From contig JAJRVN010000035.1 of assembly GCA_024277325.1 (NCBI GenBank), positions 1-37,112 of the forward strand: DNA of 37,112 nucleotides. The letters run 5' to 3'. Every line of letters starts with the position of its first letter. Positions within the stretch are counted from its first letter, which is position 1. This document shows, in pieces, positions 32,222 through 34,429 of the stretch. Under the pieces are notes generated by a model, which did not search any database, was not told the DNA's origin, and worked only from the letters and a program-made list of their open reading frames with translations. A program made the translations under genes and the position numbers. Origin of the DNA: Patescibacteria group bacterium. Its GTDB lineage: Bacteria; Patescibacteriota; Microgenomatia; JAADGY01.

Positions 32222-33133
32222 ATGAAAATCAGCCTTAAAGTTTTGTTGTTAGCTGGATTGATTTTGCCGTTTCTTATATGGGCCAAGTCCGCTTCGGCCC
32301 AAACGCCGATAGCGACAGGTTCCTTTCTAGCCAGTCCGTCAGCCAAGGGATCGGCCAGCGCCAGCGCCAGGGTCAAGGCCAGCAAACAAAAAGAAGATAT
32401 AACTCAGCCAACCAAGCCAAAAAACAAACTGGAGCAGGTCTTGGCTAAACAGGTGATCAGCCAACCAACCTGGCGTAATTTTATCCGTTACCTGGTCCAG
32501 CAATCGGTTAACCACGGAGTGCCCATAAACACATTAGTCTTGATTCTTTTGTTGCCTTTGGCCGGAGCCATCATCGCTACTTTGCGCCACATGATCGGCT
32601 TGCGGGGATTGGGTATTTTCACCCCGACGGTTTTATCCGTCGCTTTCATTTCCACAGGCATTAGCGTCGGCTTGATTATCTTTTCAACCGTGGTGATTAG
32701 CTTAACGCTGGTTCGCTTGGTCTTGAAAAAGATTAAGTTTAGGATGCAATATTTGCCAAGGATGTCTTTAATTATGATTTTTATAACTTTATCCATAATA
32801 TTTCTGTTTTATTTTTTGGCCACCAAAACTCAGATTGATATCTATACCATCTCGATCTTTCCCATCCTTATCATGATGCTTTTGGCTGAGAGCTTTATGG
32901 AGGTTCAGATAGGCCGATCACTTAGAGAAGCTATCTATCTGACCATTCAGACTTTATTGATTGCTTTGTTGGTTTATTGGGTTTTGACCATGGAATGGGT
33001 TCAGGTGTTGATGATTTCTCATACGGAGGCTGTGGTTTTGGCTACGATTTTGTGGGATATTTTTGTCGGCAAGTATGTAGGTTTGAGAGTCTTGGAGTAT
33101 TGGCGGTTTAGGCGATTAGTCAGTTCTCGATAG
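32222..33133 (+). CDS. 7TM protein of the inactive-transglutaminase-associated type, lacking the transglutaminase domain
   Basis: Signal peptide, S/A-rich linker, then about seven TM helices with GLRGLGIFTPTVLSVAF and SFMEVQIGRSLREAIYLTIQT. Confidence 0.7.
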   Translation: MKISLKVLLLAGLILPFLIWAKSASAQTPIATGSFLASPSAKGSASASARVKASKQKEDITQPTKPKNKLEQVLAKQVISQPTWRNFIRYLVQQSVNHGVPINTLVLILLLPLAGAIIATLRHMIGLRGLGIFTPTVLSVAFISTGISVGLIIFSTVVISLTLVRLVLKKIKFRMQYLPRMSLIMIFITLSIIFLFYFLATKTQIDIYTISIFPILIMMLLAESFMEVQIGRSLREAIYLTIQTLLIALLVYWVLTMEWVQVLMISHTEAVVLATILWDIFVGKYVGLRVLEYWRFRRLVSSR

Positions 33134-34429
33134 TTGCAGGTTATGAAGTATAGCCAAATCTTAGGCTTGAATGCCAGAAATCATGTTTTTCAAGCCCATT
33201 ACAATCGCAAGTCGGCCAAGCGGATAGCCAACTCAAAGCTAAATACGAAACAGTTTTTGGCTGCCCATAACTTCCCCCACCCGAAGCTTTTGACTATCTT
33301 TCGCGATTACCGCCAAGTTCTTGATTTTAAATGGGGCGACTTGCCGTCGGCCTTTGTCTTAAAGCCGGATAAAAGTTACGGCGGTGAGGGTATTATTATT
33401 GTCACTAAAGGAGGTAAATATGCCGGCGAATGGTACACCAATAACCACCAACTAAAAAACTCAAAAGACCTTCAGTTGCACACGCTTGATATCCTTGGTG
33501 GGCTTTACTCAACCCATAACATTCCTGATATTGCTTATATAGAAGAGTATGTGCCTATACACCCTGTATTCAGGCGCTATTTAACCAAAGGAACGCCTGA
33601 TGTTGGAGTCGTCGTTTTTCAGAAAGTCCCGGTTATGGCTTTTTTAAGATTGCCGACAGCCGAGTCGGGAGGTAAGGCCAATCTCCACCAAGGCGGTATC
33701 GGCGTCGGAGTGGATCTTGGCACAGGCATAACCACTTATGCTATTTACAGGGATGAATACATAACTTACTATCCCCAGACAAGGTATAAATTAAGGGGTA
33801 TTAAGATTCCGTGGTGGGATGAAACTTTAAAACTGGCGGTTGAGATCCAAGACAAAATAAAGTTGGGCTATATGAGGGTTGATTTTGTCATCCATCCGGA
33901 AAAAGGGCCGATGATTTTGGAGGTTAACTCAAAACCGGGATTGAGCATCCAGTTGGCCAACAGAGCCGGCCTGCGCAAGCGCTTGGAGAGGATTATGGAT
34001 CTTGACATAAGAAATGTTAATCATGGCATTCAAGTGGCTAAATCCCTGTTTGCCAGCTCTCTGATGGATAAAATTCAACAAAGGTACATTGTCCACCCAG
34101 TTGAGGATGTCATGGTCATCGGCAAAAGCAAAAAAATGACGGTCAAAGCTCGTATCGACACAGGTGCTTGGCGGTCATCGATCGATCGCCAGCTGGCCGA
34201 GTCATTAGGATTGCTTGACCCCAGCAACATAATTGGTCGAAATGTTTATCGGAGCGCTTTGGGCCGTCAGGAAAGGTTGTGGATAAAGCTAAAATTTAGT
34301 CTAGCCGGCAAGTATATCAACACGATTGTGTCGGTCGCTGACCGCCAGCAGTTAAGCTATCGCTTGTTAATTGGCCGGCTTGACCTGTCAAAGTATGGTT
34401 TTTTGGTTGATCCTCGGCCCAAAACTTAA
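33134..34429 (+). CDS. ATP-grasp (RimK-like alpha-L-glutamate ligase-related) fused to a C-terminal RimB-like retropepsin
   Basis: FVLKPDKSYGGEGIIIV, YMRVDFVIHPEKGPMILEVNSKPGLSIQLANRAGL; C-terminal KARIDTGAWRSSIDRQLAESLGL...LLIGRLDLSKYGFLVDP. Confidence 0.85.
   Translation: MQVMKYSQILGLNARNHVFQAHYNRKSAKRIANSKLNTKQFLAAHNFPHPKLLTIFRDYRQVLDFKWGDLPSAFVLKPDKSYGGEGIIIVTKGGKYAGEWYTNNHQLKNSKDLQLHTLDILGGLYSTHNIPDIAYIEEYVPIHPVFRRYLTKGTPDVGVVVFQKVPVMAFLRLPTAESGGKANLHQGGIGVGVDLGTGITTYAIYRDEYITYYPQTRYKLRGIKIPWWDETLKLAVEIQDKIKLGYMRVDFVIHPEKGPMILEVNSKPGLSIQLANRAGLRKRLERIMDLDIRNVNHGIQVAKSLFASSLMDKIQQRYIVHPVEDVMVIGKSKKMTVKARIDTGAWRSSIDRQLAESLGLLDPSNIIGRNVYRSALGRQERLWIKLKFSLAGKYINTIVSVADRQQLSYRLLIGRLDLSKYGFLVDPRPKT

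Follow-up and report, generated by a model that had tools for sequence, protein, structure and literature searches.

A Conserved Patescibacterial Gene Pair Encoding a 7TM Protein and a Ligase-Retropepsin Fusion: A Candidate System for Membrane-Coupled Polyglutamylation with a Possibly Exchangeable Eraser

Results

The Window Carries a Compact 7TM Gene Followed by an ATP-Grasp-Retropepsin Fusion

The window, i.e., the whole stretch of 37,112 nucleotides that was analysed, belongs to a 0.82-Mb patescibacterial genome that is 94% complete. Its closest named relatives, judged by the best 80 loci of our alignment query, are Microgenomates-type Patescibacteria (Woesebacteria, Collierbacteria). The window holds a tandem pair of genes (Table 1), with the fusion starting a few bases from the stop codon of the 7TM gene; its true start is probably the ATG at 33143, since the proteins of relatives begin there. 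An earlier note on this DNA had claimed a 7TM protein, a RimK-like ligase and a retropepsin at these positions, the latter two in one polypeptide with the DTGA aspartate intact, and the results described below clearly bear out the coordinates, the domains and the motif.

Table 1. Positions of the two genes and of their features in the window.
Feature	Position	Strand	Basis
Compact RloB-like 7TM_transglut gene, without transglutaminase domain	32222..33133	+	303 aa; PF14402
Signal peptide-like hydrophobic segment, aa 4-24	32231..32293	+	hydropathy; helix 5-24 in model
S/A-rich linker and amphipathic helices, aa 25-97, predicted to be exported	32294..32512	+	occupies the place of the RloB transglutaminase domain
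Seven-TM core, aa 98-288	32513..33085	+	hydropathy, AF2 model
Conserved basic tail, predicted to be cytosolic, GxYxGxRxxExxRF block, aa 283-303	33086..33130	+	alignment A2
ATP-grasp-retropepsin fusion gene	33134..34429	+	431 aa; PF14397 + PF05618
RimK/RloC-like ATP-grasp ligase domain, aa 15-287	33176..33994	+	PF14397; K77, D250, E263, N265 conserved
Retropepsin domain, aa 318-428, without signal peptide	34085..34417	+	PF05618; PDB and viral library matches
R340, position of RloA K46 (polyglutamate contact in RloA)	34151..34153	+	K/R in 112/112 intact MATCAP-less fusions
Catalytic D342-T-G-A345 motif	34157..34168	+	residues 342-345
R381, position of RloA R114 (polyglutamate contact in RloA)	34274..34276	+	112/112 intact MATCAP-less fusions
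R404, position of RloA R137 (polyglutamate contact in RloA)	34343..34345	+	112/112 intact MATCAP-less fusions

On the minus strand at 30810-32087, a MiaB/MtaB-like radical SAM gene (321 aa) ends early; its frame may be broken, because its C-terminal continuation seems to be encoded by the next small ORF (84 aa). The genome encodes other RimK-like ligases, which we excluded as parts of the system given their location away from the 7TM-fusion locus. One of them is split over two contigs, and the strongest RimK match of the genome (L220, G000:C17) lies in a cluster resembling LysX-type lysine/arginine biosynthesis, which is unusual for so small a genome.

The 7TM Protein Lacks the Transglutaminase Domain

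The 7TM protein matched PF14402 (7TM_transglut) with 92.3 bits against a cut-off of 25, and its AF2 model (pLDDT 83) shows seven TM helices. The profile search gave no match to the transglutaminase PF14400 in this protein, and no Pfam domain matched residues 25-97. The S/A-rich linker is modelled with low confidence at about residues 25-68 (pLDDT about 50 over residues 30-64). Thus, the signal peptide and S/A-rich linker that the earlier note had seen in place of a transglutaminase domain were recovered by hydropathy and by the model. The loops follow the positive-inside rule, from which we infer an N-out, C-in topology of the core, with the conserved tail in the cytosol; the invariant residues of this tail are G283, Y285, G287, R289, E292, R295 and F296. 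A fold search of the PDB with the 7TM model gave no meaningful hit, and none of significance to a solved transporter (best E 1.2).

The truncation described in the earlier note is real but not specific for the window: many lineages of the phylum have 7TM proteins with a short exported part or none. A long 7TM protein with PKD instead of the transglutaminase domain adjoins the fusion in Kerfeldbacteria, Jacksonbacteria and other groups; PKD takes this place in the 7TM genes of L083, L091, L070, L131, L162 and L164. Since a transglutaminase domain, PKD, or a short or missing stretch occur across lineages, the sequences indicate that the exported domain is exchangeable, unlike the 7TM core, the ligase and the presence of a peptidase.

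Both Enzymatic Domains of the Fusion Retain Their Active-Site Residues

The N-terminal part of the fusion (residues 15-287) matched the ATP-grasp profile PF14397 with 193 bits, and the best PDB folds for the ligase half are RimK structures, 5zk6 (with RpsF) and 5zct. K77, D250 and E263 are never substituted where aligned, and N265 is present in 171 of 172 loci. Residues 374-428 matched PF05618 ('Zn_protease') with 30.4 bits against a cut-off of 27. Comparison of the C-terminal half of the AF2 model (pLDDT 88 for the fusion) with the viral structure library yielded matches to a phage 'acid protease' (TM 0.78, on the target) and to retroviral proteases, as the earlier note's proposal of a retropepsin fold implied; sequence matches of this half in the PDB were DDI1 and the bacterial 'zinc protease' chain 9g59. 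According to the model, the DTG/A active site of the domain is embedded in the beta fold of retropepsins.

Residues D342, G344, A345, R381 and R404 are invariant in all 112 intact MATCAP-less fusions (see below). The correspondence to RloA residues was established through an alignment of proteobacterial homologues and the constant 23-residue spacing between R381 and R404, not through the P. aeruginosa sequence. None of the 172 fusions has a hydrophobic segment at the level of a signal peptide or membrane anchor, so the fused protease is most probably cytosolic.

The Fusion and the 7TM Gene Strictly Co-Occur in Patescibacteria

The fusion was found in 24 of 59 relatives, the 7TM gene in exactly those 24, and the two genes were adjacent in each, which clearly shows that the fused architecture is no chance event. 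In an even sample of the phylum (287 genomes), the 7TM gene occurred in 87 genomes, all within the 89 that are fusion-positive, and in 0 of the 198 fusion-negative ones. The two fusion-positive genomes without it are G264, where the fusion is a fragment at a contig end, and G271, which carries a stand-alone retropepsin beside a RimK-like ATP-grasp gene (L153:2515-3882) and no 7TM gene anywhere. The idea that genome G027 lacks the fusion was given up, since its two pieces sit at contig ends. Both genes are on the same strand in 167/167 loci, with a median gap of 6 bp. Related loci were retrieved with an alignment query; a contig scan with the single fusion sequence had given no matches.

Outside Patescibacteria, where we considered the best 80 loci of the alignment query, Proteobacteria (L110, L111, L112, L116) have the three parts as separate genes, and their RloB bears the transglutaminase domain (PF14400, 181.7 bits in L110). 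In two Omnitrophota loci (L113, L115) a 7TM and ATP-grasp pair is present, and no retropepsin was found within the fetched locus. Taken together, the alignments and profiles indicate that the pair is the conserved patescibacterial form of the Pseudomonas RloABC system and is not unique to the window. The co-occurrence elsewhere that the earlier note had asked for was thus observed. Its compressed neighbourhood is real as well, though far from a one-off: the arrangement is conserved in about 30% of the sampled Patescibacteria and has a studied relative in RloABC (PMC12239564).

The word 'minimal', used of this system in the earlier note, suits the window locus, which has no extra RimK-type ligases downstream, but not many of its relatives. 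In 40 of 73 related loci (L037-L109), the fusion is followed directly on its 3' side by between one and three more ATP-grasp ligases of the RimK type, each of about 300 aa (e.g., L037:7323-9091 and L108:7487-9435), which suggests a multi-ligase pathway in those loci. Two other fusions (L149:411-3173, 921 aa; L150:1719-4280, 854 aa) bear a long C-terminal extension, which in L149 is a second ATP-grasp domain (PF02655).

The Retropepsin Site Is Repeatedly Lost in Lineages Carrying MATCAP

In several lineages the retropepsin is followed by a MATCAP domain (PF08014; TIGR02421, 'QEGLA'), which extends the fusion protein to 770-1030 aa. These domains carry HExxxH and, in nearly all cases, the EEG(L)/QEGL third-ligand motif, and they match the solved human KIAA0895L; MATCAP is absent from the window genome. 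In the MATCAP-fused proteins the retropepsin site is destroyed in 25 cases out of 25 (D-T-G-A gone, 0/25 intact), and the arginines matching the RloA polyglutamate contacts R114 and R137 are also gone, while the fold glycine G414 is retained in 23/25.

Whole-genome searches clearly showed the same trend. Where MATCAP is absent, the D[TS]GA motif was intact in 36 genomes and lost in 0; where it is present, the motif was intact in 13 of 51 and lost in 38. The Fisher test of motif state against MATCAP, with kinship ignored, gave p 7e-14. MATCAP itself was found in 52 of 89 fusion-positive vs. 11 of 198 fusion-negative genomes. Among 167 non-redundant loci, the retropepsin was intact in 107 and lost in one when no MATCAP was found, intact in 0 and lost in 25 when MATCAP was fused, intact in 11 and lost in 6 when it lay within the fetched stretch, and intact in 7 and lost in 10 when it lay elsewhere in the genome; for named loci, MATCAP was sought within the fetched flanks.

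In one Microgenomates family near the window's branch, N-T-G-R stands where D-T-G-A is expected, and in 5 of 6 loci a separate MATCAP gene follows immediately downstream. One lineage member, L088 (DTGR), has no MATCAP nearby, which counts against replacement. In another family (f51, L168-L184), DTG[IV] replaces DTGA, the contact residues are altered and a MATCAP gene lies several kb away; these retropepsins may have changed specificity or be decaying.

The losses are scattered over about four positions on the ATP-grasp trees. Constraining them to one clade was rejected both for the fused rows (p-AU 0.002) and for all lost rows (p-AU 0.001), the constrained groups having been named after tree inspection. 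A sign test on independent pairs found at most four informative pairs one way and 0 the other, so its direction agrees and its power is too low. The trees therefore suggest about four independent losses, and the replacement of the eraser would be a correlation over roughly that many events. The 13 genomes that carry both peptidases seem to represent an intermediate state or a division of labour; the two enzymes could have different jobs there, which counts against replacement.

Discussion

In this work, we describe a patescibacterial relative of the RloABC operon of P. aeruginosa. In that operon, RloA cleaves runs of at least eight glutamates, for which its R114 and R137 are needed, and the effect of losing RloA is relieved when rloB or rloC is deleted; the system is linked to osmotic stress, with hypo-osmotic tolerance as the phenotype (PMC12239564). 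The window likewise combines a 7TM protein, an RloC-like ATP-grasp ligase and a retropepsin in one operon, and its protease has DTGA together with K/R at the alignment positions of RloA K46, R114 and R137. Several differences are evident. RloA is encoded on its own and has a signal peptide for secretion, whereas the window protease is fused after the ATP-grasp domain and predicted to be cytosolic; RloB has a periplasmic inactive transglutaminase domain, which is absent from the window protein; and the window proteins fall below the NCBIfam cut-offs (RloB 64.2/900, RloA3 29.5/210, TIGR02291 245.6/314.2). Since RloA is secreted and works across the membrane, the cytosolic placement cannot simply be mapped onto Rlo: either the Pseudomonas product is cut after crossing the membrane, or the systems have evolved apart.

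The second system to be compared is RimK/RimB, in which RimK adds glutamates and RimB removes them; RimK also makes free poly-alpha-glutamate under the control of RimB, which stimulates RimK synthesis, and the RimB-RimK hybrid of Desulfotalea has already been shown to be an active protease (PMC11957791). Here, too, a ligase of the RimK fold is partnered by a cytosolic retropepsin, and a natural fusion exists. However, the order in the hybrid is protease-ligase and in the window ligase-protease, and in RimK/RimB there is no 7TM partner and the acceptor is S6. Our literature search, confined to papers free of subscription, found no earlier description of the fusions studied here. The neighbourhood of 7TM protein, ligase and protease probably goes back to the amidoligase paper of Iyer (2009).

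We consider it fairly probable that the pair is a cytosolic writer-eraser coupled to the membrane, that is, the patescibacterial version of Rlo. The ATP-grasp domain would attach glutamate, or an acidic residue like it, to a cytosolic acceptor at the expense of ATP, and the fused retropepsin, as a dimer, would trim the resulting glutamate chain. The 7TM protein would probably dock the enzyme at the inner membrane, and may either report the envelope state, or be, or move, the substrate. Our confidence in these parts differs. It is strong for the retropepsin as the eraser, because of the replacement pattern in relatives; moderate for glutamate as the trimmed chain, because this specificity is extrapolated from remote relatives (RimB/RloA, TMCP); and weak for the role assigned to the 7TM protein. 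The idea of the earlier note that one candidate enzyme both adds and trims thereby appears to gain independent support from the MATCAP replacement of the protease.

Among other explanations, the one that survives best, though we judge it rather unlikely, is that the ligase makes free poly- or oligo-glutamate or a mixed peptide, the retropepsin sets its length before export, and the 7TM protein exports it. RimK provides a precedent for a free product under protease control (PMC11957791), and the RloA authors, pointing to osmotic stress, favour free polyglutamate or modified proteins (PMC12239564). The additional ligases beside the fusion in 40/73 related loci recall peptide-building operons, and the conserved C-tail of the 7TM protein is placed, by the predicted topology, in the cytosol beside the enzyme. 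However, the 7TM model resembles no solved transporter significantly, and the window lineage is without extra ligases at the locus.

It is still less probable that the retropepsin domain mainly regulates the ligase instead of acting as a protease, the dead domain of the MATCAP fusions being the same regulator. This would agree with the stimulation of RimK synthesis by RimB (PMC11957791) and with the retention of an inactive retropepsin-like domain, mostly with G414, in the 25 MATCAP fusions. The catalytic aspartate and the substrate arginines, however, are invariant in all MATCAP-less lineages, and a purely structural role would not need them; moreover, the two roles can coexist. Finally, a RimK/RimB-type system modifying ribosomal protein S6, as the nearest solved folds (RimK, one with RpsF) and the Desulfotalea hybrid (PMC11957791) might suggest, is very improbable in view of the obligate pairing with a 7TM membrane protein, the low scores (TIGR00768 36.9 bits vs. 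a cut-off of 143.4; RimB model 13.5 vs. 200), the C-terminal position of the retropepsin, which is N-terminal in the RimBK hybrid, and, less clearly, the S6 of the window genome, which ends in ...LLVRQDDK rather than in an acidic run.

Returning to the writer-eraser reading, the identity of the replacing peptidase is informative. Human members of the MATCAP/TMCP family cut off C-terminal residues and shorten the polyglutamate chains of tubulin (PMC10499314), and the HExxxH...EEG domain of this family (PDB 7z5g, 7z5h, 7z6s; bacterial QEGLA family TIGR02421) is fused or adjacent to the ligase in related Patescibacteria, though not in the window genome. For bacterial MATCAP/QEGLA members, our literature search found no tested activity. 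As one of the two peptidase families includes proven eukaryotic deglutamylases, the apparent exchange points to the trimming of a C-terminal glutamate chain in the cytosol as the shared job. We therefore propose, tentatively and with slightly less than even confidence, a reversible membrane-coupled polyglutamylation with writer and eraser in one polypeptide, the eraser having been exchanged several times from the retropepsin to a MATCAP metallocarboxypeptidase.

The Patescibacteria pair indicates that the transglutaminase domain is dispensable, and in a single soluble polypeptide both ligation and trimming could be addressed in one tube. The related lineages would represent a natural experiment, in which one ligase is equipped with either of two unrelated peptidases as its built-in partner. 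If the proposal is true, the trimming of glutamate chains would be an old, prokaryotic function of the tubulin tyrosine carboxypeptidase family.
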